From NCBI RefSeq assembly GCF_020991085.1, contig NZ_CP087719.1, positions 5,131,001 to 5,195,000 on the forward strand: a stretch of DNA of 64,000 nucleotides. The letters are read 5' to 3'. The translations under genes and the position numbers were made by a program. The notes under the pieces were generated by a model. That model was not told where the DNA came from. It did not search any database and was given only the letters and a program-made list of their open reading frames with translations. The DNA comes from Roseomonas sp. OT10. Lineage in GTDB: Bacteria > Pseudomonadota > Alphaproteobacteria > Acetobacterales > Acetobacteraceae. Below, in pieces: positions 9,683 through 30,332 of the stretch (the stretch's first letter is position 1; every line of letters starts with the position of its first letter).

Positions 9683-11740
9683 TCATCCCGCGGGCATCGC
9701 GGCCCGCAGCAGGATCGCGCCGGATTCGTGCACCTCGCCGGACCAGCCGGGCGGAACCAGCGTCGTCGCGTCGAGCTGCGTGACGATGGCCGGCCCCTCG
9801 AACCGGTCCCCGGCCCCCAGCGCGGCGCGGTCGTAGAGCGCCGCGTCCCGGCTGCCCCCGGCGAAGTGCACGCGCTGCGTGCCCACCGGCACGGCGCCGT
9901 CGCCGGGCGGCAGGGTCGCGGCCACGGCGGGCGGCAGCAGCCCCGCCGCCTCCACGCGCAGGGTGACGATCTCGGGCGTTCCCTCCGGCAGGTCGAAGCC
10001 GTACAGCGCCCGGTGCGCGCCGGCGAAATCCGCGGCCGCCCGGGCCACGCCGCCGCGCCAGGGCACGGCCAGCTCGCTGCCCTGGCCGGCATAGCGCATC
10101 AGCACCACCCGCTCCCGCCGCCGGGAGGCGGGGGCGACCTGCTCCTCCGCCAGCCAGTCCTCCGCCTCGGCCTCCAGCGCGGCGAAGGCGGCTTCGATCG
10201 CGGGGTCGGCCGCCTCCCCGGGCAGGAGGGAGCGGCTGAACTCCGCGCGCAGGTCCGCGGCCAGCAGCCCCTGGGCGCAGAGCACGCCCGGCGAGGGCGG
10301 CACCAGCACCGTGCCGATCCCCAGCATCCGCGCCAGCGCGCAGCCATGCAGCGGCCCGGCCCCGCCGAAGGGGGCCAGGGCGAAGTCGCGCGGATCGTGG
10401 CCACGCTCCACGGACACGACGCGCAGCGCGCCGACCATGTTGGAATCCGCGATGGCCAGGATGCCGCGCGCGGCGGCGTGCAGGTCCAGCCCCAGCGGCT
10501 CCGCCACCTCGCGGCGCACCGCCGCCTCGGCCGCCCCCACGTCCAGCACCATGCGCCCGCCCAGCAGCCGCGGCGGCAGGTGGCCGAGCACGACATGCGC
10601 GTCCGTCACCGTCGCCTGCGTCCCGCCCAGCCCGTAGCAGGCGGGGCCAGGCCGGGCGCCGGCGCTTTCCGGCCCCACGGCGAGCGCGCCGTCGCGGGTG
10701 ACGCGCGCCAGCGAGCCGCCGCCGGCGCCGATCGTCACCATGTCCACCATGGGCAGGGGCAGGGGCCATTCCCCCACCTTGCCATGCTGGGTGAGGCCGA
10801 TGGCCCCGCCGCGCAGCAGGCAGATGTCGGCGCTGGTGCCGCCGATATCGACGGTGAGGATGTCGGGCACCCCGGCCGCCTGCGCCACCGCCCGCGCGCC
10901 CACCACCCCGGCCGCCGGGCCGGACAGCGCGGTGACGGCCGGGGCGCGGCGGATGGAGGTGGCGCCGGCCACGCCGCCATTCGACTTCATCAGCAGCAGC
11001 GGCGCCGCGATGCGCGCCTCCGCCAGCCGCTCCTCCAGCCGGCGGACATAGGTGGAGACCGCCGGCATCACCTGGGCATTCAGGATCGTGGCGAGCGAGC
11101 GCTCGTATTCCCGCACCACCGGCAGCACGTCGGAGGAGGCGGTGACCGCGATCCCGGGCAGGGCCTCGCGCAGCATCGCCGCCACGCGGGCCTCGTGCGC
11201 CGGGGCGGCGAAGGCGTGCAGCAGGCAGACGGCGACGGCGGAGACCCCCGCGGCACGGCAGGCTGCGGCCGCGTCGGCGACGCTGGCCTCATCCAGCGGG
11301 GTCAGCACCGTGCCGTCGGCCGCGACGCGCTCCACCACCTCGAAGACGCGGGAGGGCGGGACGGGGCGCGCGGGCTTCACCCAGGCATGCAGGTTGGCAC
11401 GGCGCGGGATGTCCTGCCGCCCGATCTCCAGCACGTGGCGGAAGCCCGCGGTGGTGACGAGGGCCGTCGTGGCGCCCTTGCCCTCCAGGATCAGGTTGGT
11501 CGCCACGGTGGTGCCGTGCAGCACCCGCCCCACCCGCGCCTCCGCCTCGCCCGCCGCCTCCAGGGCCAGGCGTACGCCGGTCAGGAAGGCTTCCGAGGGG
11601 TCCTGCGGCGTGGAGGGGGTCTTGGCCGTCCAGGCGCGGCCGGTGGCGTCGTCCTGCAAAGTGATGTCGGTGAAGGTGCCGCCGATGTCGACCGCGACCG
11701 AAAGGGGGGCCACGGAAAGGTCCGCGTCAGTCGAGGGCAT
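9683..11740 (-). CDS. hyuA: Hydantoinase/oxoprolinase subunit A (ATP-dependent)
   Basis: The 685-residue protein has the actin-like ATPase signatures of HyuA: SVAVDIGGTFTDITL near the N-terminus and ILTVDIGGTSADI around residue 300, plus TTVATNLILEGKG and LAPFGGAGPLHG. I start it at 11740, where GGGAG sits 8 bases upstream. An ATG six bases earlier is too close to that site. With subunit B (previous gene, 14-base overlap) it opens hydantoin or 5-oxoproline rings using ATP. The gene closes an operon headed by an oligopeptide ABC transporter, suggesting that imported cyclic amide or pyroglutamyl compounds are the substrates. The precise substrate is not deducible. Its 3' end abuts the phage-like element. 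Confidence 0.93.
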   Translation of the reverse strand: MPSTDADLSVAPLSVAVDIGGTFTDITLQDDATGRAWTAKTPSTPQDPSEAFLTGVRLALEAAGEAEARVGRVLHGTTVATNLILEGKGATTALVTTAGFRHVLEIGRQDIPRRANLHAWVKPARPVPPSRVFEVVERVAADGTVLTPLDEASVADAAAACRAAGVSAVAVCLLHAFAAPAHEARVAAMLREALPGIAVTASSDVLPVVREYERSLATILNAQVMPAVSTYVRRLEERLAEARIAAPLLLMKSNGGVAGATSIRRAPAVTALSGPAAGVVGARAVAQAAGVPDILTVDIGGTSADICLLRGGAIGLTQHGKVGEWPLPLPMVDMVTIGAGGGSLARVTRDGALAVGPESAGARPGPACYGLGGTQATVTDAHVVLGHLPPRLLGGRMVLDVGAAEAAVRREVAEPLGLDLHAAARGILAIADSNMVGALRVVSVERGHDPRDFALAPFGGAGPLHGCALARMLGIGTVLVPPSPGVLCAQGLLAADLRAEFSRSLLPGEAADPAIEAAFAALEAEAEDWLAEEQVAPASRRRERVVLMRYAGQGSELAVPWRGGVARAAADFAGAHRALYGFDLPEGTPEIVTLRVEAAGLLPPAVAATLPPGDGAVPVGTQRVHFAGGSRDAALYDRAALGAGDRFEGPAIVTQLDATTLVPPGWSGEVHESGAILLRAAMPAG

Positions 11741-13544
11741 CAGCATAGCTCCCGCGGTGGAAGGCCCGCGCCTCGGGCCGGTCGGCGCGCCGCGCCGCGG
11801 TGGCGGCCGCGTCCACCGCGCCGCTCGCGACCACCACGCCGTAGTCGCGCGCCGCGCCCTCCGGGCTCACCAGCCCGCCCAGCACATCGGCCAGGACGGC
11901 GTCCGCCGGCCGGTCGAAGGGGTGGCCGCGCCCGCCGCCGCCCCCCGTCTCGATGCGCAGGATGTCGCCGCGCACCAGCCGGTTGCCGTCGGAGAGCGGG
12001 CGCAGCACCCGCTCCCGCCCCGTCCCCGGATTCACCACCACGCGCCCGGGTCGCCCGGACTGGCCGCCGGCCGCGCCCCAGGGCGGGTTCTCCACCCCGT
12101 CCACGCGCACCGCCAGCACGGCCTCGTCGGCAAGCACCTCGTACTCGCGCAGGATGCCGCAGCCGCCGCGCCAGCGCCCCGGCCCGCCGCTGTCGCGGTG
12201 CAGCGCGTAGTGGCGCAGGCGCACGGGGTATTCCAGCTCCAGGAACTCGACCGGGTAGTTCTCCTGCGCGACGAAGTAGACGCCGTCGATCCCGTCGGCG
12301 AAGCCGCGCGCGCCATAGCCCACGCCCAGCCCGTCGCTCATCAGGAAGGGCTTTCCCTGGTGCATGCCGCGCAGCAGCATGATGACATAGGCCGCATGCG
12401 CCGCCGGCGCCTCGCCGCCGGCCACCGCGACCAGCCCGTTCAGCGCCGCGAGCGTCCGCATCATGGTCAGGCCGCGCATGCCCAGCGCCGCCGGCCAGCG
12501 CGGCTGCAGCAGCGAGCCCTCGCGCAGGATCACCTCGTCCAGGGATTGCGGGCCGCCGGCATTGACCACCTGGTTCGGGTCGCCGCCGAGGAAGTACATG
12601 CCCAACGCCATGCCCGGCACGTCCGGGTTCATCAGGAAGTTCACCGGGCCGGGCGACTGGTCGTCCGTCTCCGTGGCGTCGAGGATGAAGCGGTCGTCGC
12701 CGTCCGGCGCCGGCTCCCGCGTCAGGGCCAGGCGCAGCCGCAGCGGGCCGTTGCCATGGCCGTCGCCATCGATGCGGTCGGTGAAGCGGTGCGTGCCGAC
12801 GGGGAAGGTGTCGCGCAGCCGGGCGCGCACGATGGCGCGCGTGCGGGCCAGCAACTGCGCCAGCGCATCCGCCAGGATGTCGGGGCCGAAGCGGGCGGCG
12901 ATCTCGCGCATGCGCGTCGCGCCCAGATCCACGCTGGCCATCAGCGCCCGCGCGTCGCCGCGCGCCACGGCGGGATAGCGGCAGTTGCGGTAGAAGATGT
13001 TCAGCGCCGCCTCGTTCAGCGTGCCCGCATCGATCAGCTTCGTCGGCGGGACGATGATGCCCTCGTGGAAGATCTCGGTGGCGTCGGGCGAGATGGAGCC
13101 GGGGCGCAGGCCGCCGATGTCGGCGAAATGGGCCCAGCCCATGACGAAGGCGATGCGCCGCCCCTCGTGGAAGACGGGTGCGAGGAAGACCTGGTCGTTG
13201 GAATGGCTGACCGCGCCGCGCGAGCCGTAGCAGTCGCTGTACCAGTAGAGGTCGCCCTCCCGCATCGCCTCCTTGGGGAAGTGGCGGAAGACCGGCCCGG
13301 TGATGTCGCCGAAGATCGGCACGTTGGAGCCGACCGCCATCACCCCGTCCGCGTCGAACAGCGCGTTGAAGAAGTCCTTCTTCTCGCGGATGAAGGCGGA
13401 CATGGCGGTGCGCTCGATCAGCGCCTCCATCTCCACCTGGGCGGCGCGCATGGCGCCGCGCACGATCTCCAGCGTGACGGGATCGCAGAGCCGGGGCGGG
13501 GGGAGCCGGGACGGGGAGAGCTGGGCGGGCGGGGCGTCGTTCAT
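11727..13544 (-). CDS. hyuB: Hydantoinase/oxoprolinase subunit B
   Basis: The 605-residue protein carries the family-typical opening DPVTLEIVRGAMRAAQVEME, then HSNDQVFLAPVFHEGR, and the conserved HRDSGGPGRWRGGCG and RGHPFDRP segments found in HyuB/oxoprolinase B. Length matches the family (about 550-620). The start at 13544 has GGAGA upstream. It pairs with HyuA, whose start lies inside its last codons, implying coupled 1:1 synthesis. Substrate candidates are hydantoins, 5-oxoproline and related lactams. Confidence 0.93.
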   Translation of the reverse strand: MNDAPPAQLSPSRLPPPRLCDPVTLEIVRGAMRAAQVEMEALIERTAMSAFIREKKDFFNALFDADGVMAVGSNVPIFGDITGPVFRHFPKEAMREGDLYWYSDCYGSRGAVSHSNDQVFLAPVFHEGRRIAFVMGWAHFADIGGLRPGSISPDATEIFHEGIIVPPTKLIDAGTLNEAALNIFYRNCRYPAVARGDARALMASVDLGATRMREIAARFGPDILADALAQLLARTRAIVRARLRDTFPVGTHRFTDRIDGDGHGNGPLRLRLALTREPAPDGDDRFILDATETDDQSPGPVNFLMNPDVPGMALGMYFLGGDPNQVVNAGGPQSLDEVILREGSLLQPRWPAALGMRGLTMMRTLAALNGLVAVAGGEAPAAHAAYVIMLLRGMHQGKPFLMSDGLGVGYGARGFADGIDGVYFVAQENYPVEFLELEYPVRLRHYALHRDSGGPGRWRGGCGILREYEVLADEAVLAVRVDGVENPPWGAAGGQSGRPGRVVVNPGTGRERVLRPLSDGNRLVRGDILRIETGGGGGRGHPFDRPADAVLADVLGGLVSPEGAARDYGVVVASGAVDAAATAARRADRPEARAFHRGSYADALD

Positions 13545-13575: not shown

Positions 13576-15294
13576 TCACTGGAAGGGCCGCGCGGTTTCC
13601 CGCGTGCCGGCGGGGTAGCAGAGCCTGCCGCCGACGACGCGGTAGCCGGCCTCCTGCAGGAGGCGCCGCGCGGCCTCGAGGCCGCCCCCCGGGGCGCGGG
13701 CCTCGATGCCCGGGTCGTGCCAGAACTCCAGCGCCGGCGAGACCAGCGAGTTCGACGGCACCGCCTGCCCGCCCCAGGCGGCGCCGGCCATCATCTCCCG
13801 GTTCGCCACCGTCGAGAGCGCGCGGCGGAAGGCAGGGTCGGAGAAGGGCGGGCGGCGCAGGTTGAAGGCGGCGTACTGGAAGCCGATGTCCACGCCCTCG
13901 CGCAGCGCGAGGGTGGCGGATTGCGACGCCACCAGGTCCCGCAGCGGCTCCGGGTCGCCGGGATAGTCGGCGAGCACGTTGACCTCCCCGCGGCGGAGTG
14001 CCCCGAGGGTGGATTCGATGTTCGTGATGATGCGGATGATGAGGCGATCCGCCTTCGGCCGGGACCAGTGGTTCGGGTTGGCCTCCAGCACCACCTCCTC
14101 GTTGGTGCGGTGGCGGACGAAGCGGTAGGGGCCGGAGCCGACCGCCTTCTCGTCGAGATAGGATTCCAGGTTCTCCGGGCGGCCCATGTAGTCCCGCAGC
14201 ACCGGCTCCCACAACGCCTTCGGCACGATGTTCAGCTTCGACAGCGTGGCGATCTGGAAGGCGGCATCGGGCTTCCGCAGGGTGAAGCGCACCGTGCGCG
14301 GACCCGTCGCCTCGACCGAGGCGATGTTGGCCACGAAGGGCTTGTACATCGGCGCCTCGTCGCCGGTGCCGGGCAGCCGGAAGGAGAAGACGATGTCCTC
14401 CACGGTCACCGGGGAGCCGTCGTGGAAGGTCATGCCCTCGCGGATCACGCAGTCGATGGTGGTGGGATCGACCAGCGTCACCGTCTCCGCCGCCCAGGGC
14501 TTCGGCAGCCCGTCCGGGCCGACGCGCATCACCCGGTCCCAGACCAGCTCGTTCGCCCAGGAATCGGGGATGCCGCCGATGTTGAAGGGATGGATGACGC
14601 GCACCGGCTCGGTGCTGTTCAGCACGATGTCGCGAAGGTTGCCGGAGGGGGCGAGGCCGATCCAGTTCCAGAAGTTGCGCAGCCCCAGCCCCGCCTGCAT
14701 CACCACGCTGCCCTCGGCGAAGATCCGCTTGTTGAAGGCCTGCAGGTTCACCGGGTGCACGAGGAAGGCATAGGGCTGGTCCTGGTTGATCCGCTCCTGC
14801 AGCTCCCGCATCAGCGCCTGTCGCTTCGGCAGGTCCAGCTCCGTGCGCTGCGCCTCGGCCAGCCGGTCATAATCGGGGCTGCTGTAGCCGACGAAGTTGT
14901 AGCCGCTGGCGATGTTGGCGGAGTGGAAGAGGTTGTAGACCAGCTCATCCGGGTCGCTGCGTTCGGGGCGGCCGGTCATCGCCCACATGGTGGCGTCCCA
15001 GCGCTGCCGCTCGTACCAGACGGTCTGGGTCAGCTGCTGGATCGGCATCGGCCGCAGCTCGATGGTCAGGCCGAGCTTGCGCCATTCCTGCGCCAGCAGC
15101 TCGGCGGCCTGCCAAGCGGCGGGAGCGGCAGCCTGGGGGCGGGTGAGCAGGATGATGGGCCGGATCGGGTCGCCCGCAGCGCCCTGTGCCAGGGCGGGGG
15201 CGGCCATGCCCAGACCAGTCATGTCCAGCCCGGCTATGCCCAGGCCGGCCGAACCGATGGTGGCGGTGCTGAGAAGCAGGGCTCGGCGGCGCAT
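13576..15294 (-). CDS. ABC transporter substrate-binding protein (SBP family 5), circularly permuted order
   Basis: The 572-residue protein has a signal peptide (residues 1-37, ending ALAQG) and a clear AGGAG site. All family-5 peptide-binding segments are present but in a rotated order. The segment normally near the C-terminus (AAELLAQEWRKLGLTIELRP, then GYSSPDYDRLAEAQ at about 134) comes first. The normal N-terminal part follows (FHDGSPVTVEDIVFSF at about 289), and the chain ends at LLQEAGYR, which is normally mid-protein. In the unpermuted homologue at 28719 the same two landmarks are at about 461 and 113. It would act in the periplasm, delivering peptides or related ligands to the permeases encoded upstream. 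It is a paralogue of the protein at 19227. Confidence 0.9.
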   Translation of the reverse strand: MRRRALLLSTATIGSAGLGIAGLDMTGLGMAAPALAQGAAGDPIRPIILLTRPQAAAPAAWQAAELLAQEWRKLGLTIELRPMPIQQLTQTVWYERQRWDATMWAMTGRPERSDPDELVYNLFHSANIASGYNFVGYSSPDYDRLAEAQRTELDLPKRQALMRELQERINQDQPYAFLVHPVNLQAFNKRIFAEGSVVMQAGLGLRNFWNWIGLAPSGNLRDIVLNSTEPVRVIHPFNIGGIPDSWANELVWDRVMRVGPDGLPKPWAAETVTLVDPTTIDCVIREGMTFHDGSPVTVEDIVFSFRLPGTGDEAPMYKPFVANIASVEATGPRTVRFTLRKPDAAFQIATLSKLNIVPKALWEPVLRDYMGRPENLESYLDEKAVGSGPYRFVRHRTNEEVVLEANPNHWSRPKADRLIIRIITNIESTLGALRRGEVNVLADYPGDPEPLRDLVASQSATLALREGVDIGFQYAAFNLRRPPFSDPAFRRALSTVANREMMAGAAWGGQAVPSNSLVSPALEFWHDPGIEARAPGGGLEAARRLLQEAGYRVVGGRLCYPAGTRETARPFQ

Positions 15295-15321: not shown

Positions 15322-16296
15322 TCAGGCGAGGTGGCAGGCGGCGTGGCGTCCCGCCGCGACCCCGCGCAGCACCGGCTCCTCCTCCGCGCAGCGGGCGAAG
15401 GCCAGCGGGCAGCGGTCGCGGAAGGTGCAGCCGGAGGGCTGGTTCACCTGGTCCGGCAGCCCCCCGCGAAGCGGCAGGGCGCCGCGGTCCTGCTCCACGC
15501 GCGGCACGGGCACGGCGGCGACCAGGGCGCGGGTATAGGGGTGGGCGGGGGCGGCGATGACCTCGGCGGTGGGGCCGGACTCGACCACGCGCCCGAGATA
15601 CATCACCGCCACTTCCTCGCAGACGTAGCGGATCAGGGCGAGGTCGTGGCTGATGTAGAGCGCGGCCAGCCCCAGCTCGTCCCGCGCCGCGCGCAGCACG
15701 TTCAGCACGCCTGCGCGGACGGAGACGTCGAGCATGGAAACCGGCTCGTCCGCCACGATCGCCTTCGGATGCGTCACCAGGGCGCGCGCCAGCACCACGC
15801 GCTGGAGCTGCCCGCCCGACAGCTCGTGCGGATAGCGGTCGAGATAGGCGGCGGGCGGGTTCAGCCGCACCCGCGCCATCGCCTCCTGGATGCGGGCCGG
15901 GTGCTGCGCGGCGGGCAGGCCGAAATTGTTCAGCGGCTCGGTCAGGGAGCGGCGGATGGTGAAGCGCGGGTTCAGCGCGTCGAAGGGGTTCTGGAAGACC
16001 AGCTGCACCTTGGCCCGGAAGGGCAGCAGCGCCTTGCCCTGCAGGGGCGTGACGTCCCGCCCCTCGAACAGCACCGCGCCCGAGGTCGGCTCCTCCAGCC
16101 GCAGCAGCAGCCGCGCCGTGGTGGTCTTGCCGCAGCCGCTCTCCCCCACGATGCCCAGCGCCCGGCCGGCGCCGACCGCCAGCGACACGCCGTTCACCGC
16201 CCGCACCACAGGCCGCCGCCCGGCCAGCACGTCCGCCATGCGCCGCGGCGCCGGGAAGGCCTTCACCAGGTCATTGGCGGCGATCAGCGGGCCCAT
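15322..16296 (-). CDS. Oligopeptide ABC transporter ATP-binding protein, DppF type
   Basis: I start this at 16296 (MGPLIAANDLVKAFPAPRRM), overlapping the upstream ATPase by 13 bases, for 324 residues. Walker A GESGCGKTT, Q-loop VFQNPFDALNP, signature LSGGQLQR, Walker B AIVADEPVSMLD and switch H (SHDLALI) are all intact. The C-terminal oligopeptide-transporter extension with its cysteine cluster (CTFRDRCPLAFARCAEEEP) suggests an iron-sulphur site, as in Dpp/Opp ATPases. It would form a heterodimer with the DppD-type subunit and power the two permeases of this operon. Confidence 0.94.
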   Translation of the reverse strand: MGPLIAANDLVKAFPAPRRMADVLAGRRPVVRAVNGVSLAVGAGRALGIVGESGCGKTTTARLLLRLEEPTSGAVLFEGRDVTPLQGKALLPFRAKVQLVFQNPFDALNPRFTIRRSLTEPLNNFGLPAAQHPARIQEAMARVRLNPPAAYLDRYPHELSGGQLQRVVLARALVTHPKAIVADEPVSMLDVSVRAGVLNVLRAARDELGLAALYISHDLALIRYVCEEVAVMYLGRVVESGPTAEVIAAPAHPYTRALVAAVPVPRVEQDRGALPLRGGLPDQVNQPSGCTFRDRCPLAFARCAEEEPVLRGVAAGRHAACHLA

Positions 16297-17291
16297 GTCG
16301 CGGCCTCCGCGGCGAGCGGGCGCAACGCGGCCGCCTCGGTGGCGCGCCAGCAGGCGGCATGGTGGTCCGGCGCCTCCTCGACCAGCGGCGGGTCCTCGGC
16401 GCAGCGCGCGACGGCGAAGGGGCAACGTGGCGCGAAGCGGCAGCCGCCGGGCGGGTCGAGCAGGGAGGGTGGCGCGCCCTCGATCGGCACCAGCTCGCCG
16501 CCCGCGCGCTCCAGGTCGGGGAAGGCGTTCATCAGCCCCATGGTGTAGGGGTGCAGCGGCGCCTCCAGCACGGCGCGCACCGGCCCGCTCTCCACCACGC
16601 GCCCGGCATACATCACCACCACCCGGTCGCAGGCATAGGCGACCACCGCCACGTCGTGCGTGACCAGGATCATCCCCAGGCCGAGCCGGGCCTGGAGGTC
16701 CTTCAGCACGTCCAGCACCTGCCGCTGCACGATCACGTCCAGCGCCGTCACCGGCTCGTCCGCGATCAGCAGGGCCGGATTCAGCGCCAGGGCCACGGCG
16801 ATCGAGGCGCGTTGCCGCATGCCGCCGGAGAACTGGTGCGGCCAGTCCCGCAGGCGCCGCGCATCCAGCCCGACCAGGGCGAAGAGCTCCGCCGCCCGCG
16901 CCTGCGCCGCCGCGCGCGACATCCCGCCGCGCTCGGTCAGCACCTCCATGACCTGGGCGCCGACGCGCTGCACCGGGTCGAGCGCGTTCATCGCCGTCTG
17001 CGGCACGAAGGCGAGGCGGCGCCAGAGCAGCGCGCGCCGCTCGCCGGGCGAGAGGGCGACGAGGTCGCGCCCCTCGAACACGGCCTGCCCGGCGGCGATC
17101 CGCGCCGCGCGCGGCAGCACGCCCATCAGCGCGCGGCCCAGGGTGGACTTGCCGCAGCCGCTTTCCCCCACCAGCCCGACGATGGCGCCGGCGGGCACGT
17201 CGAAGCTGGCCCCGTCCACCGCCCGCACCGGACCGGCCGGCGTGGCGTAGTGGACGGCAAGGCCGCGGACGGAGAGCAGCGGCGCCATCAA
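16284..17291 (-). CDS. Oligopeptide ABC transporter ATP-binding protein, DppD type
   Basis: The 335-residue protein has Walker A GESGCGKST, signature FSGGMRQR, Walker B LLIADEPVTALD and switch H (THDVAVV). The C-terminal cysteine motif CRFAPRCPFAVARCAEDPP is that of the Opp/Dpp family. The ATG at 17291 overlaps the permease stop codon (ATGA). It is one of two ATPases of a complete permease-permease-ATPase-ATPase set. The arrangement and cysteine motif point to peptide or peptide-like substrates. Confidence 0.94.
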   Translation of the reverse strand: MMAPLLSVRGLAVHYATPAGPVRAVDGASFDVPAGAIVGLVGESGCGKSTLGRALMGVLPRAARIAAGQAVFEGRDLVALSPGERRALLWRRLAFVPQTAMNALDPVQRVGAQVMEVLTERGGMSRAAAQARAAELFALVGLDARRLRDWPHQFSGGMRQRASIAVALALNPALLIADEPVTALDVIVQRQVLDVLKDLQARLGLGMILVTHDVAVVAYACDRVVVMYAGRVVESGPVRAVLEAPLHPYTMGLMNAFPDLERAGGELVPIEGAPPSLLDPPGGCRFAPRCPFAVARCAEDPPLVEEAPDHHAACWRATEAAALRPLAAEAATWAR

Positions 17292-18235
17292 TCCCCCAGC
17301 TTCGGGAAGAGCAGCTTCTCGGAGCCGCGCGAGATCAGGAAGCCCGCCAGAACCAGCAGCACGACGCAGAGCCCGGGCGGGACGAACCAGTTCCAGGCGC
17401 CGCGCGACAGCGCCTGGTTGGCGAAGGCGTCCTGCAGCATCAGCCCCCAGGAGATCGCCGCCGGGTCGCCGAAGCCGAGGAAGGAGGCGGAGGCCTCGGT
17501 CAGGATCGCCCAGCCCACCGCGATGGAGCCGTAGAGCGCGGCCAGCGGCGCGACCTGCGGCGCGATGTGCACGAAGATGATGCGCGCGCGGGAGCAGCCG
17601 GTGACGCGCGCCGCTTCCACCCAGCCGCGCTCGCGCAGGGACAGCACCTGGGAGCGGATGACGCGCGCCGTGTTGGGCCAGAGCAGCAGCGCGACCGAGG
17701 CCACCAGCGTATCCGTCCCGGCATGGGTGAGGGCGGAGATCACCAGCACGAAGGGCAGGAAGGGCAGGCCCAGCACCACGTCGGCCAGCCGCATCACCAG
17801 CCGGTCCACCCAGCCGCCGAGGTAGCCGGAGAGCAGGCCGAGCAGCGAGCCCAGCGCCACGACGCAGATGGCCGCGGTGATGCCGACGGTGAGCGCCGAG
17901 CGGGTGCCGTGCACGAGCTGGGAGAAGATGTCGCGCCCGCCCGCCGTGGTGCCCAGCCAGTGCGTGGCCGAGGGCGGCAGGTAGCGCGCGACGCGGTAGG
18001 CGCCGCTGAACATGATCTGCCGCGGGTCGTGGGTGGCGATGAGGTCGGCGAAGACCGCGACCAGGATGAAGGTGGCGTAGATCGCCAGCCCGACCAGGGC
18101 GAAGGGCTGGGCCCGCAGGAAGCCCAGCGTCGCGCCGAGCGCCCGGCCCAGGCCGGGCCCCCAGCCGATCCCGCGCGTGGCGGGCAGGGCCCTATCGCTT
18201 GGCACCGACCGAAACCCTCGGGTCGAGCCAGGCAT
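17288..18235 (-). CDS. Oligopeptide ABC transporter permease, DppC type
   Basis: The 315-residue inner-membrane protein has an N-terminal membrane segment (FALVGLAIYATFILVAVFAD, about 44-63), then LGTTAGGRDIFSQLVHGTRS, the classic DppC entry loop, and about five more membrane segments. The EAA loop is EAARVTGCSRARIIFVHIAP, which contacts the ATPases. It overlaps the DppB-type gene by 44 bases, so a slightly later start is possible. It pairs with the DppB-type subunit to form the translocation channel. Confidence 0.93.
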   Translation of the reverse strand: MPGSTRGFRSVPSDRALPATRGIGWGPGLGRALGATLGFLRAQPFALVGLAIYATFILVAVFADLIATHDPRQIMFSGAYRVARYLPPSATHWLGTTAGGRDIFSQLVHGTRSALTVGITAAICVVALGSLLGLLSGYLGGWVDRLVMRLADVVLGLPFLPFVLVISALTHAGTDTLVASVALLLWPNTARVIRSQVLSLRERGWVEAARVTGCSRARIIFVHIAPQVAPLAALYGSIAVGWAILTEASASFLGFGDPAAISWGLMLQDAFANQALSRGAWNWFVPPGLCVVLLVLAGFLISRGSEKLLFPKLGD

Positions 18236-19226: not shown

Positions 19227-20906
19227 TCATTGGAACGGCGCCGTGCTTTCCTTCACGCCGGGGGGGTAGTGCAGCCGGTTCCCGACCAGCCGGTACCCCG
19301 CCTCCTGCAGCAGCTTCTTCGCCCCGTCGAAATTGCCGCCGGGGACGCGCGTCTCGATGCCCTTGTCGTGCCAGAACTCCAGCGCCGGCGAGACCAGCGA
19401 GTTCGCCGGGACCGCCTGCCCGTTCCAGGCTGCGCCCGCCATCATCTCGCGGTTGATCGCGGCCGAGAGCGCGCGGCGGAAGGCGGGGTCGGAGAAGGGC
19501 GGGCGGCGCAGGTTGAAGGCGACGAACTGGAAGCCAATGTCCACCCCCTCGCGGATCGCCACCATCGCCGGCATCTGCGCCGCGATGCCCTTCAGCAGCT
19601 CCGGGTCGCCGTAGTAGTCGGCGATGACGTTGACCTCGCCGCGGCGGAAGGCGCCCAGCGTCGCCTCCGTGTTGGTGATGATGCGCATGATCCAGCGGTC
19701 GGCCTTGGGCTTCGCCCAGTGGTTCGGGTTCGCCTCCAGCACCACCTCCTCGTTCACGCGCGAGCGGACGAAACGGTAGGGGCCGGAGCCGACCGGCTTC
19801 TCCTCGACGTAGGATTCGAGGTTCTGCGGCCGGTTCAGGTAGTCCTTGACCACCGGCTCCCACAGCTTCCTGGGCACGATGTTCAGCTTCGCCAGCACGG
19901 CGATCTGGAAGGCCGCGTCGGGGCGTTTCAGCGCGAAGCGCACCGTGCGCGGGCCGGTCGCCGTCACCGAGGCGATGTTGGCCACGAAGGGCTTGTACAT
20001 GGGCGATTCGTCGCCCATCCCCGGCACCTCGAAGGAGAAGACCACGTCCTCCGCCGTCACTGGGCTGCCGTCGTGGAAGGCCATGCCCTCGCGCAGCGTG
20101 CAGTCGACGGTGGTGGGATCGACCTGCGTCACCCTCTCCGCGGCCCAGGGCTGCGGCAGCCCGTCCGGGCCGACGCGCATCAGCCGGTCCCAGACCAGGT
20201 CGGTCACCCAGGAATCCGGCGCGCCGCTGACATAGAAGGGGTTGGTCGCCTTCACCGGCTCGGTACTGTTCACCACGATGTCGCGCTGCCGCCCGGTGGG
20301 GCGCAGGCTGATCCAGTTCCAGAAGTTGCGCAGCCCCAGCCCCGCCTGCATCACCACGCTGTCCTCGGCGAAGACCTGCTTGTTGAAGGCGTGCAGGTTC
20401 ACCGGATGCACCAGGAAGCCGTAGGGCTGGTCCTTGTTCACCAGCTCCTGCACCTGCATCACCAGGTCCCGGCGGCGCTTCTGGTCCAGCTCGACGCGCT
20501 GCGCCTCGGCCAGCCGGTCGTAATCGGGGTTGTTGTAGCCGACGAAGTTGTAGCCCGTGGCGATGTTGGCCGAGTGCAGCAGGTTGTAGACCATCTCGTC
20601 CGGGTCGCCGCGCTCCGGCCGGCCGACCATCTGCCACATCGTGGTGTCCCAGCGCTGCCGCTCGTACCAGACCACTTGGCTCTGCTGCTGGTTCGGCAGC
20701 GGGCGGAGGTCCACCACCAGCCCGAGCTTGCGCCATTCCTGCGCGATCAGCTCCGCCGCCTGCCAGGCGGCCGGCGCCGCGGCCTGGGGGCGGGTGATCA
20801 GCACGATCGGGCGGATCGGGTCGCCGGGCGCTCCCTGTGCCGCCGCGGGCAGGTGCGGCAGGGCCGTGAGGGATGTGGCGGCGAGGAGCAACTGACGGCG
20901 GCGCAT
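19227..20906 (-). CDS. ABC transporter substrate-binding protein (SBP family 5), circularly permuted paralogue
   Basis: The start at 20906 (MRRRQLLLAATSLTALPHLP) gives a signal peptide and 559 residues. The sequence is closely similar to the protein at 13576 along its whole length and shows the same rotated segment order. GYNNPDYDRLAEAQ comes at about 122, before FHDGSPVTAEDVVFSF at about 276, and the chain ends shortly after LLQEAGYRLVGNRL. It is the first gene of the operon, followed by the permease and ATPase genes, so it is probably the main periplasmic receptor. The second copy may widen the ligand range. The divergent peptidase gene begins 152 bases away. Confidence 0.9.
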   Translation of the reverse strand: MRRRQLLLAATSLTALPHLPAAAQGAPGDPIRPIVLITRPQAAAPAAWQAAELIAQEWRKLGLVVDLRPLPNQQQSQVVWYERQRWDTTMWQMVGRPERGDPDEMVYNLLHSANIATGYNFVGYNNPDYDRLAEAQRVELDQKRRRDLVMQVQELVNKDQPYGFLVHPVNLHAFNKQVFAEDSVVMQAGLGLRNFWNWISLRPTGRQRDIVVNSTEPVKATNPFYVSGAPDSWVTDLVWDRLMRVGPDGLPQPWAAERVTQVDPTTVDCTLREGMAFHDGSPVTAEDVVFSFEVPGMGDESPMYKPFVANIASVTATGPRTVRFALKRPDAAFQIAVLAKLNIVPRKLWEPVVKDYLNRPQNLESYVEEKPVGSGPYRFVRSRVNEEVVLEANPNHWAKPKADRWIMRIITNTEATLGAFRRGEVNVIADYYGDPELLKGIAAQMPAMVAIREGVDIGFQFVAFNLRRPPFSDPAFRRALSAAINREMMAGAAWNGQAVPANSLVSPALEFWHDKGIETRVPGGNFDGAKKLLQEAGYRLVGNRLHYPPGVKESTAPFQ

Positions 20907-21058
20907 GGGAAACGTCTCCGGCGATTGGCGCGCATGCAAGCACATCCTGTGCCTCAGGCAAGGCGGAATCCGCATCCATTGCATTCTTTTGGTATGCAGC
21001 CGCTTGCACGGCCGGGCCGTCGGTGCTGGCATCCGCGCCGCCAACGGGAGCCCGTCCG
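20907..21058. promoter_or_regulatory. Divergent promoter region between binding protein and M28-type peptidase
   Basis: This 152-base gap must carry the promoters for the leftward transporter/hydantoinase operon and the rightward peptidase gene. It is less GC-rich than its flanks (stretches such as CATTGCATTCTTTTGGTATG). I see no convincing hexamer pair or palindrome, and no dedicated regulator lies next to it. Confidence 0.4.
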
Positions 21059-22798
21059 ATGCCGATCAGCGATGCCGAGCGTTCCTTCCTCGATGCCATC
21101 TCCCTCGATGCGCCCTGGGAGCTGGTGACGACCTTCGCGCAGACGCCGCGCTGGAAGCCGGAGGACGTCAACGCGGCGGGCGGGATGATCGCCGAGCGGC
21201 TGCGCCGGCACGGCGTGCCGGTGGAGGTGCACCGGCCGGAGATCTGCCTCTCGATTCCCCACGATGCCTCCGTCACGGCCGCGGGCGTGACCTACCGCGC
21301 CAAGCCGCCCTCCTCCTCGCTGCCGGTGCCGGAGGGGCGCACCGCGCCGCTGGTCAAGCTGGTCGCCAACCCGAAGGCGCTGCGCTCCTACAACCGCGAC
21401 ATCGCCACGCTGTTCGGCGGCTCCATCACCTCCGTCGAGGAGGTGCGGGAGAAGGTGGGGGGGAAGATCGTGGTCATGCAGGGCTTCGGCAACCCCGCGC
21501 TGACCAGCCTGATCGAGGAGTGGGGCGGCGTCGGGCTGATCGCGGTCAATCCCGGCATCGACATCCACTGGGGCACCTGCACCACCATCTGGGGCAGCCC
21601 CGACCTGCACGACCTGCCGCGCAAGCCGAAGATCCCCGTGGTGGCGGTGAACAACCCGGACGGGCAGGCGCTGATGGCCCTGGCCGAGCGGGGCGGCGAG
21701 GCCACCATCCGCACGGTGATGCAGGAAGGCTGGTTCGAGCAGGCCGTCCCCGTCGCCACCATCCCCGGCACCGAGGAGCCGGAGAAGTTCGTCCTCCTGC
21801 ACGGGCACTACGACAGCTGGGACGTCGGCGTGGGGGACAACGCCACCGGCGATGCCTGCATGCTGGAGGTGGCGCGGGTGCTCTGGGCCCATCGCGCCCG
21901 GCTGAAGCGCAGCGTGAAGATCGCGTGGTGGCCCGGCCATTCCACCGGGCGCTATGCCGGTTCCACCTGGTTCACCGATGCCTTCGCGCAGGAGCTGGAC
22001 CGCGACTGCCTGGCGCAGATCAACTGCGACAGTCCGGGCTGCCGCTGGGCGACCTCCTACCACGAGACGCGGGCCTTCACGGAATGCGCCGCCCTGGCCG
22101 CGGGCGCCATCCGCGACGTGGTGCCCGGGGCGGAGATCAGGACCATGCGGCCGCCGCAGGCGGGCGACTACTCCTTCAACAACATCGGGCTGCCGAGCTT
22201 CCTGATGCTGTCCAGCACGATGCCGGAGGCGCTGCGCAAGGAGAAGAACTACTACGACGTCTCCGGCTGTGGCGCGAACATCGCGTGGCATACGGAGAAC
22301 GACACGCTGGAGATCGCGGACCGCGACATCCTGCTGACGGACATGCGGATCTACCTGCTCTCCGTGCTGCGCGTGGCCAATGCGGAGGTGCTGCCCTTCG
22401 ACTGGACCGCCACCTGCGACGAATTCGACGGCACCATCGGCGAGTACGAGGCCGCCTCCTCCGGCATGGCGGACCTCGCCCCGGCCCGCGAGGCGGTCGC
22501 GGCGCTGCGCCAGGCCCTCTCCGCGCTGGAGGGCGCGCCCACGGCCGCCCGCAATGCGGCGCTGCAGGAGCTCTCCCGGCTGCTGGTGCCGATCAACTAC
22601 ACGCGCGAGCCGCGCTTCACCCACGACCCCGCCTATACCGTGCCGCCCCTGCCCACCCTGGCCGTGGCGGCGGAGCTGCCCTCCCTGCCGGAGCACCTCC
22701 GCCGGCCGGGGCAGGTGGAGCTGATGCGCGGGCAGAACCGCTTCGTCGCCGCCCTGAACGCCGCCACCCGGCGCGTGCGGCAGGCCGCCGGCGGCTGA
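21059..22798 (+). CDS. M28-like metallopeptidase with PA-type insert, altered active-site motif
   Basis: The 579-residue protein starts MPISDAERSFLDAISLDAPW with no signal peptide. A PA-domain-like region (GKIVVMQGFGNPALTSLIEE) precedes the catalytic half. Zinc-ligand candidates are present: HGHYDSWDVG (about 247), GDNATG (about 258), NCDSPG (about 321) and WHTEND (about 410). The position that normally carries the Glu-Glu pair with the general base reads WWPGHSTGRYAGS (about 290-302) instead. The enzyme may therefore use another base or have lost peptidase activity. It diverges from the hydantoinase/peptide-transport operon, suggesting that it processes the imported substrate. Confidence 0.85.
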   Translation: MPISDAERSFLDAISLDAPWELVTTFAQTPRWKPEDVNAAGGMIAERLRRHGVPVEVHRPEICLSIPHDASVTAAGVTYRAKPPSSSLPVPEGRTAPLVKLVANPKALRSYNRDIATLFGGSITSVEEVREKVGGKIVVMQGFGNPALTSLIEEWGGVGLIAVNPGIDIHWGTCTTIWGSPDLHDLPRKPKIPVVAVNNPDGQALMALAERGGEATIRTVMQEGWFEQAVPVATIPGTEEPEKFVLLHGHYDSWDVGVGDNATGDACMLEVARVLWAHRARLKRSVKIAWWPGHSTGRYAGSTWFTDAFAQELDRDCLAQINCDSPGCRWATSYHETRAFTECAALAAGAIRDVVPGAEIRTMRPPQAGDYSFNNIGLPSFLMLSSTMPEALRKEKNYYDVSGCGANIAWHTENDTLEIADRDILLTDMRIYLLSVLRVANAEVLPFDWTATCDEFDGTIGEYEAASSGMADLAPAREAVAALRQALSALEGAPTAARNAALQELSRLLVPINYTREPRFTHDPAYTVPPLPTLAVAAELPSLPEHLRRPGQVELMRGQNRFVAALNAATRRVRQAAGG

Positions 22799-28718: not shown

Positions 28719-30332
28719 ATGACGACCTCTGCGCGCAATACTCCGGGCCTCACGCGCCGCCTGCTCGGCACCGCCGGCCTGGCCGCGGCGCTGGCGCCGG
28801 CCTGGAGCGGCCCGCTGCGCGCCCAGGCGCAGCCGAAGCGGGGCGGCCGCATCACGGTGGCGCTGAGCCCCGAGCCGCCGACGCTGATGCTGGGCCTCAG
28901 CGGCCAGGGGCCGGTGCAGCTCGTGGGGGGGAAGATCTACGACGCGCTGCTGACCTATGCGCACGACCTGACGCCGCAGCCGAGCCTGGCGAAGAGCTGG
29001 GAGGTCTCGCCGGACGGGCTGCGCTACACCTTCCGGTTGCAGGAGGGCGTGACCTGGCATGACGGGAAGCCCTTCACCGCCGAGGATGTGGTGTTCTCGA
29101 TGCGGGACTTCCTGTCGGAAACCAACCCGCGCGCCCGCGGCCTGACCAGCCGCATCAAGGAATACGCCACGCCCGACGCGCAGACGGTGGTGATCACGCT
29201 GGGCGAGCCGGTGCCTGCCTTCCTCTGGTTCTTCGACGTCACCACCATGCCGATGATCCCGAAGCACCTCTATGCCGGGACGGATTTCCGCAACAACCCC
29301 GCCAATGCGACCCCCATCGGCACGGGGCCCTTCCGCTTCGTGGAGTGGCGCCGGGGGGAGCTGGTGCGCCTCGCCCGCAACGAGCACTACTGGAAGCCGG
29401 GCAGGCCCTATCTGGACGAGGTGGTGTTCCGCATCCTGCCCGACGCCGCCTCCCGCCTCGCGGCGCTGGAGAACGGGCAGATCGACGTCGCCTCCAACTA
29501 CGACATCGATCCGGTCCACACGCCGATGCTGTCGCGCCTTCCCAACCTGGAGGTGACGAACAAGGGCTACGAGTTCCTCGGCCACCTCTCCTGGCTGGAG
29601 ATGAACAACCGGGTGAAGCCGATGGACGACCGCCGCTTCCGCCAGGCGGTGCTGCATGCCATCGACCGCGACTTCCTGGCCCAGCGCATCTGGTTCGGCA
29701 ACGCCATCCCCGCCACCGGCCCGCTGAACCAGGCGACGCGCTTCTACGAGAAGGACACTGCGCGCTACCCCTTCGACCCGGCGAAGGCACGCGCCCTGCT
29801 GGACGAGATGGGGCTGAAGCCCGGCGCGGACGGGGTGCGGGTCAGCCTGCGCATGATGCCGCTGCCCTATGGCGAGGTCTGGACCCGGATGGCGGAATAC
29901 ATCCGTGAATCCCTGGGCAAGGTCGGCATCCGGCTGACGCTGGAGGCGGTGGATGCCGGCGCCTGGGCGCAGCGCCTGGGCAACTGGGACTACGACATGA
30001 CGATCAACGTGGTCGGCCAGTTCGCCGATCCGGCGATCGGCGTGGCCCGCAGCTACGTCAGCAGCAACATCCGCAAGGGCATCCCCTTCACCAACACCGA
30101 GGGCTATTCCAACCCGCAGGTCGATGCGCTGTTCGAGAAGGCCGCCGTGACCGTCGACCAGGGCGAGCGCGCGAAGCTCTATTCCGACGCCCAGAAGCTG
30201 CTGGTCCAGGACGTGCCGGTCGGCTGGCTGCTGCAGGTGCGCTTCCCGACGGTGCTGAACAAGCGCTTCGCGGACGTGATCACCACCGCGATCGGCGTGA
30301 ACGAGAGCTTCGACGCCGTCCACCTGCGCTGA
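28719..30332 (+). CDS. ABC transporter substrate-binding protein, family 5, canonical order
   Basis: The 537-residue protein has a Tat-like or Sec signal (TRRLLGTAGLAAALAPAWSG) followed by the usual family order: GGRITVALSPEPPTL, YDALLTYAHDLTPQPSLAKS, WHDGKPFTAEDVVFSM (about 113), AIDRDFLAQRIWFGNA, KARALLDEMGL (about 357) and GYSNPQVDALFEKA (about 461). It is the unpermuted reference for the two rotated paralogues elsewhere in the window. It heads a transporter cluster and binds peptides or similar ligands in the periplasm. Confidence 0.95.
   Translation: MTTSARNTPGLTRRLLGTAGLAAALAPAWSGPLRAQAQPKRGGRITVALSPEPPTLMLGLSGQGPVQLVGGKIYDALLTYAHDLTPQPSLAKSWEVSPDGLRYTFRLQEGVTWHDGKPFTAEDVVFSMRDFLSETNPRARGLTSRIKEYATPDAQTVVITLGEPVPAFLWFFDVTTMPMIPKHLYAGTDFRNNPANATPIGTGPFRFVEWRRGELVRLARNEHYWKPGRPYLDEVVFRILPDAASRLAALENGQIDVASNYDIDPVHTPMLSRLPNLEVTNKGYEFLGHLSWLEMNNRVKPMDDRRFRQAVLHAIDRDFLAQRIWFGNAIPATGPLNQATRFYEKDTARYPFDPAKARALLDEMGLKPGADGVRVSLRMMPLPYGEVWTRMAEYIRESLGKVGIRLTLEAVDAGAWAQRLGNWDYDMTINVVGQFADPAIGVARSYVSSNIRKGIPFTNTEGYSNPQVDALFEKAAVTVDQGERAKLYSDAQKLLVQDVPVGWLLQVRFPTVLNKRFADVITTAIGVNESFDAVHLR

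Follow-up and report, generated by a model that had tools for sequence, protein, structure and literature searches.

Circular permutation of a family-5 solute-binding protein in Roseomonas sp. OT10, with permuted relatives in bacteria and haloarchaea

Natural circular permutation of the solute-binding protein (SBP) of an ATP-binding cassette (ABC) importer, kept across species, has been described for TpMglB-2 (Tp0684) and its relatives, the ‘Type Ic / Cluster Bc’ proteins (PMC4990184, excerpted text). TpMglB-2 belongs to the sugar-binding Type I / Cluster B, has three strands shifted from a position close to the N-terminus to one close to the C-terminus and a fourth hinge crossing, and still binds ligand, with membrane tethering offered by its authors as a possible cause of the permutation. 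Permuted halves of the Thermotoga maritima ribose-binding protein likewise concern the periplasmic binding protein fold, but these are laboratory-made half-proteins of another class (PMC9815098, excerpted text). Here, a 64,000-nucleotide stretch of Roseomonas sp. OT10 (contig NZ_CP087719.1, positions 5,131,001 to 5,195,000; hereafter the window) was analysed, in which the SBP P0003 resembles the family-5/Cluster C proteins (AppA, DppA, and OppA; PF00496) in sequence family, predicted fold, and Dpp/Opp-type operon partners, but differs from them in a rotated chain with termini near DppA positions 345/346. Unlike that in TpMglB-2, the shift in P0003 takes ~170 residues of a Cluster C protein from its C-terminal to its N-terminal end, and the sequence and fold matches listed for P0003 fall in family 5.

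Among the open-access matches listed (titles and abstract starts, with preprints outside the scope), neither a permuted family-5 protein nor a propeller-bearing OppC, as discussed below, was described. As far as the available parts of each source extend, PMC2588589 has PF00496 in a table and permutation in the title of a cited reference, and PMC7701253 concerns a permuted ATP-grasp protein. The original prediction, made from the sequence of the window, knew of no such rotation in this family; within these matches none is described for family 5, but one is for an SBP of another class, TpMglB-2 (PMC4990184). The rotation may, as first suggested, affect hinge motion or ligand access.

Order of the family-5 blocks in P0003

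The gene, its parts, and an ordinary relative from the same window used as comparator are as follows.

13576..15294, minus strand: permuted family-5 solute-binding protein P0003, 572 amino acids (aa), the second binding protein of its operon
15175..15294, minus strand: putative export leader, approximately aa 1–40 (RRR, hydrophobic stretch, ALAQ), a reading of the sequence
14653..15171, minus strand: former C-terminal block, aa 42–214 (PF00496, BLASTP, and hhalign matches)
14635..14652, minus strand: junction of the old C- and N-termini, approximately aa 215–220 (gap between alignments)
13615..14634, minus strand: former N-terminal two thirds, aa 221–560 (Pfam, BLASTP, structure, and profile matches)
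28719..30332, plus strand: ordinary unpermuted family-5 binding protein P0002, the comparator (single PF00496 stretch, 85–447 on profile positions 1–361)

The span 13576–15294 had been given correctly in the original prediction, though without the minus strand; the plus strand at these positions holds a different open frame that lacks the family-5 landmarks. As a whole protein, P0003 scores 224.7 bits against PF00496 (gathering cut-off, 32.4 bits), and the profile search proposed as a check returned the anticipated two stretches in inverted order, with residues 218–572 alone matching profile positions 2–282 (199.5 bits) and residues 1–217 alone matching positions 295–366 (28.6 bits, below the cut-off). 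The same inversion appears in BLASTP against P0002 (537 residues), in which residues 64–214 align with 392–536 (E = 1.6e-7) and residues 251–552 with 73–367 (E = 3.8e-29), and in profile–profile comparison, in which residues 219–551 match residues 41–369 of P0002 (E = 1.9e-69) and the N-terminal block matches 18 aligned ordinary proteins at their C-terminal end (hhalign, 99.7%, E = 3.4e-25). In a sequence search of the PDB, the later part of P0003 corresponds to residues 59–337 of Lmo0135 (5isu) and 80–349 of AppA (1xoc) and the N-terminal part to residues 357–460 and 379–497, respectively, with the AppA match recovered when the N-terminal part was searched alone (E = 1.9e-8); among the best 60 of 94 PDB chain matches, the top stretch never begins before query residue 221. 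Read from these alignments, the former C-terminal third stands first and the former N-terminal two thirds follow, each present once, with the old termini joined by a few residues.

The family-5 landmarks are all present but rotated, as had been predicted, in the Pfam, PDB-sequence, own-profile, and profile–profile comparisons, and a linear full-length alignment in normal order, named beforehand as the result that would refute the rotation, appeared in none of them. GYSSPDYDRL starts at residue 136 and FHDGSPVTVEDIVFSF at residue 290, close to the ~134 and ~289 first proposed. Two details were revised: the chain runs 20 residues beyond LLQEAGYR, where the protein had been said to end, and the join of the old termini, placed at residues 195–215, lies nearer 214–221, where the BLASTP match stops (aa 214) and the structure alignment to DppA residue 1 starts (aa 221). 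With a PF00496 score well placed for family 5 and no collinearity with the profile, P0003 is therefore filed as a permuted branch of the family and not as an ordinary member. None of the NCBIfam equivalogs searched (NikA, DppA, OppA, SapA, and GsiB) reaches its cut-off, the best for P0003 being 93 bits against 600.

An AlphaFold model of P0003 is confident overall (pLDDT, 89.9; pTM, 0.85), with pLDDT <50 at aa 1–31, and its residues 221–560 superpose on DppA 1–345 (VIA-align on Foldseek’s top 1000, with the best 50 matches listed). Judged from this model, P0003 would have the Cluster C fold, and it is predicted to adopt the usual family-5 fold, its new termini falling near DppA 345/346. We take this site to lie in domain III, the second lobe; in ordinary family-5 proteins both termini are presumably in domain I.

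As a control, 27 ordinary family-5 proteins from this genome were made into a profile, which was run on 97 permuted-like open reading frames (ORFs), chosen for collinearity with P0003 and including P0003 and its paralogue P0004, and on 46 ordinary ORFs, which are not independent of the profile because 27 of them built it. Some genes were reached via two collections (e.g., loci L036 and L111), so the distinct permuted genes number fewer than 97, and seven fragment or unclear matches (two each at L122 and L139, one each at L009, L027, and L030) belong to neither set. The profile matched 96 of the 97 permuted-like ORFs in two blocks, inverted by midpoint in 96 of 96 and free of overlap over five positions in 90 of the 96, while all 46 ordinary relatives gave one block in normal order. 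Rotation of 60 permuted proteins to the ordinary order, leader removed, improved the score in 59 (median gain, 51.8 bits; minimum, −0.2) and yielded a single near-full-length block in 58; not one of the 46 ordinary proteins gained >15 bits on rotation in steps of 20. With the leader retained, five of nine proteins gave no informative scan, since the leader breaks up the join.

The two exceptions are an adjacent and very divergent pair from Halarchaeum (L108:9767-11551 and 11742-13529), each with two inverted blocks of which the first is weak (18 and 16 bits), and for which rotation does not give one block.

A circularly permuted chain is the favoured explanation as a whole, with a probability of roughly 93%, combining the inverted blocks with a confident model in which 221–560 overlays DppA 1–345 and so bearing out the reading first proposed. 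Two structural points weigh against it. The overlay covers residues 221–560 only, and the placement of the N-terminal block on DppA 346–507 rests on sequence and profile matches because the aligner kept chain order; moreover, no permuted relative with a solved structure occurs among the PDB sequence matches (best 60 of 94, and the search with the N-terminal part).

A very improbable alternative is partial duplication or gene fusion, in which a stray C-terminal fragment sits ahead of a truncated SBP and the product is damaged or bifunctional. Any permutation includes a fusion step, and the two permuted copies in the window have diverged fairly fast (dN, 0.18; dS, 0.39; dN/dS, ~0.47), but each block is present once, 96 bacterial and archaeal ORFs break at the same place, almost the whole mature chain is modelled with confidence, and rotation gives a single block in 58 of 60 proteins; partial duplication was rejected by the block-order and rotation tests. 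That misalignment makes a divergent, linear family-5 protein look rotated has a negligible probability: the N-terminal block alone does fall short of the Pfam cut-off, yet the hhalign match of that block is to the extreme C-terminus of ordinary relatives, rotation brings none of the 46 ordinary proteins a gain above 15 bits, and linear alignment was rejected by the same two tests. An artefact of assembly was also rejected, since the identical rotated order recurs in many genomes.

Distribution and descent of the permuted branch

The Roseomonas sp. OT10 genome (5.7 Mb) holds 75 match rows to P0003, some proteins contributing two, a large family-5 expansion in its own right. Two of the 75 rows span the rotated chain, both in the window operon. 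In samples of the family, class, phylum, and Halobacteria, the best few candidates per genome were scored, such that the following counts may be low. Matches occur in 37 of 299 genomes of the family (own genome included; E ≤1e-40), most near full length and some fragments, and in 14 of 385 genomes of the class (own included; 1e-35), one of which (G703) has a fragment at a contig end. At the phylum level, 13 of 299 genomes match at 1e-60, full length in the own genome only, with the other 12 starting at profile position ≥193. More than half of the Halobacteria genomes match (78 of 145; 1e-70), and 139 of 141 matches there run from profile position ≤48 to ≥509 in the permuted order. Two haloarchaea, G1218 (locus L076) and G1217 (L083), carry six and three divergent, profile-spanning permuted paralogues, respectively (E ≤1e-70).

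A search of genome contigs left 80 loci, of which 67 have a permuted ORF. Their hosts include Falsiroseomonas, Pararhodobacter, Halomonas and relatives, Trueperaceae, Alkalispirochaeta, Anoxynatronum, Micromonosporaceae, Anaerolineae, SAR324, and haloarchaea; several of these genomes are metagenome-assembled and their names may be unsure. On plasmids, 20 records match at 1e-30, with query coverage of at least 80% in 18.

In a tree with rotated sequences, the permuted rows lie on one side of a branch, requiring one change. Counting against a single origin, its SH-aLRT support is only 62 in the tree of 60 permuted and 46 ordinary rows; the value of 99 comes solely from a smaller tree, with 22 selected permuted rows (L108 left out) and 55 ordinary rows, where the branch that connects the permuted clade with the adjacent ordinary rows scores 73. 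The trees fit a single origin followed by transfer, some of it between bacteria and haloarchaea. Circular permutations generally arise through duplication and loss. The rotation would have arisen once, by a tandem duplication from which the outer parts were lost and a leader was placed on the new N-terminus, and would then have spread.

Membrane tethering, the possible cause proposed for TpMglB-2, was rejected as a cause of the family-5 rotation: a lipobox-like motif occurs in only 13 of the 60 permuted proteins (the regular expression was loose and may have picked up false matches, e.g., L056), and so low a share speaks against tethering as a general reason.

Operon, neighbouring enzymes, and probable role

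The operon of the window reads SBP, DppB, DppC, DppD, DppF, SBP, HyuB, HyuA and comprises, besides P0003 and with a divergent neighbour, the following genes.

19227..20906, minus strand: second permuted paralogue P0004, first gene of the operon, 74% identical to P0003
18192..19169, minus strand: DppB/OppB-type permease (BPD_transp_1, BPD_transp_1_N)
17288..18235, minus strand: DppC/OppC-type permease, 315 aa, without an insert (OppC_N, BPD_transp_1)
16284..17291, minus strand: DppD-type ATPase (ABC_tran, oligo_HPY)
15322..16425, minus strand: DppF-type ATPase (ABC_tran, oligo_HPY)
11727..13544, minus strand: hydantoinase B/oxoprolinase family protein, HyuB (PF02538)
9683..11746, minus strand: hydantoinase A/oxoprolinase family protein, HyuA (PF01968, PF05378)
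20873..22798, plus strand: divergent M28 family peptidase (PF04389), start codon uncertain, overlapping the start of P0004 as listed

The locus thus has the DppBC-type permeases and oligo_HPY ATPases of a family-5 operon. The original prediction did not mention that P0003 has a 74% identical paralogue in its operon or that it belongs to a broad family. A binding protein between DppF and HyuB was found at none of the eight loci that share the operon (L031-L038), and P0003 therefore appears to be a duplicate of narrow distribution. Those eight loci have one such binding protein each, and the second one here may give the importer another ligand.

Neighbouring genes were labelled by their best BLASTP match against the gene set of six annotated plasmid regions. 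By these labels, 60 of the 67 permuted loci have a DppB-type permease. P0003 most likely serves a Dpp/Opp-type importer as its binding component, with small peptides or peptide-like amino-acid derivatives as the ligand proposed from genomic context. At L039 (Paracoccaceae) and the Falsiroseomonas-type loci, HyuA/HyuB, M28, and M20 genes adjoin the SBP; in Haloferacaceae, the neighbours are D-aminoacylase, M81, and, at most loci, dipeptide epimerase and DUF1611; and the SAR324 locus has creatininase-type and aminotransferase genes. None of the 13 unpermuted loci in the same search showed HyuA, HyuB, M28, D-aminoacylase, or dipeptide epimerase. These enzymes give a hint that peptides or peptide-like amino-acid derivatives are imported and degraded. 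Less favourable to this role, the neighbour enzymes vary by clade, M20 and creatininase-type genes also occur at unpermuted loci (2 and 3 of 13, respectively), and a Maritalea locus has a gamma-glutamylcyclotransferase-like gene and none of the other hydrolases.

It is possible, but unlikely, that the SBP serves mainly non-peptide compounds such as hydantoins or oxoproline. Hydantoinase/oxoprolinase A and B genes adjoin the SBP here and at related loci, and the structural neighbours listed bind, by their titles, many non-peptide ligands such as opines, nickel complexes, and sialic acid. HyuA and HyuB are nevertheless found at only 10 and 9 of the 67 permuted loci, some truncated, far fewer than the DppB-type permease, and four haloarchaeal loci have D-aminoacylase instead, three of them with dipeptide epimerase. 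A fixed link to hydantoinases was rejected, these being seen in L031-L039 and partly in L089 but not at most other loci. Under the peptide-type role, P0003 would be exported by its own leader, bind short peptides or peptide-like amino-acid derivatives while closing like its relatives, and pass the ligand to the permease, after which the linked hydrolases would degrade the imported compound.

A permease with a propeller-like insert in one subclade and the meaning of the rotation

In a subclade of Halomonadaceae, Paracoccaceae, and related taxa, the OppC-type permease has ~580 residues, with OppC_N at 17–49, the transport domain at 394–575, and beta-propeller matches in between (PSII_BNR in three of four inserts scanned, none in L044). 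At L063, from Vreelandella, the permease (L063:12632-14365), like the other long OppC-type ORFs, carries a beta-propeller-like insert of ~300 residues in the first extracytoplasmic loop, and the adjoining gene (L063:14365-16671) fuses both Dpp-type ATPases into 769 residues with two ABC_tran and two oligo_HPY stretches. OppC-type ORFs of at least 513 residues, counted stop to stop, make up 27 of 55 in the permuted loci. In 12 genomes chosen for such a locus, the insert occurs in 12 of 103 permease matches, one per genome, with the remaining 91 matching only from residue 328 onward. Within the family sample of Vreelandella, the insert permease (E 1e-90) and the permuted SBP (E 1e-40) occur in the same eight of 121 genomes, ~1.1 kb apart in all eight, and in an order-level sample the insert permease occurs in one of 145 genomes at 1e-100, the L063 genome itself. 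Shared operon descent would equally give this co-occurrence.

Tentatively, the permuted family-5 SBPs may constitute a separate, single-origin class of peptide-type importer found across bacteria and approximately half of haloarchaeal species, in which the rotation would put the N-terminal end, and the lipid anchor where present, on the second lobe. The transporter parts may have adapted, with the OppC of one subclade gaining an extracytoplasmic beta-propeller-like domain that the other matched OppC-type permeases of the same genomes lack.

Family-5 binding proteins are very common and are modelled as a single linear family, and a widely kept rotated branch means that linear domain models split permuted family-5 proteins in two. 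Together with TpMglB-2, the branch suggests two or more origins of rotation within the binding proteins of ABC importers. It also offers a natural experiment on what chain connections and what placement of the termini an SBP with two lobes requires.
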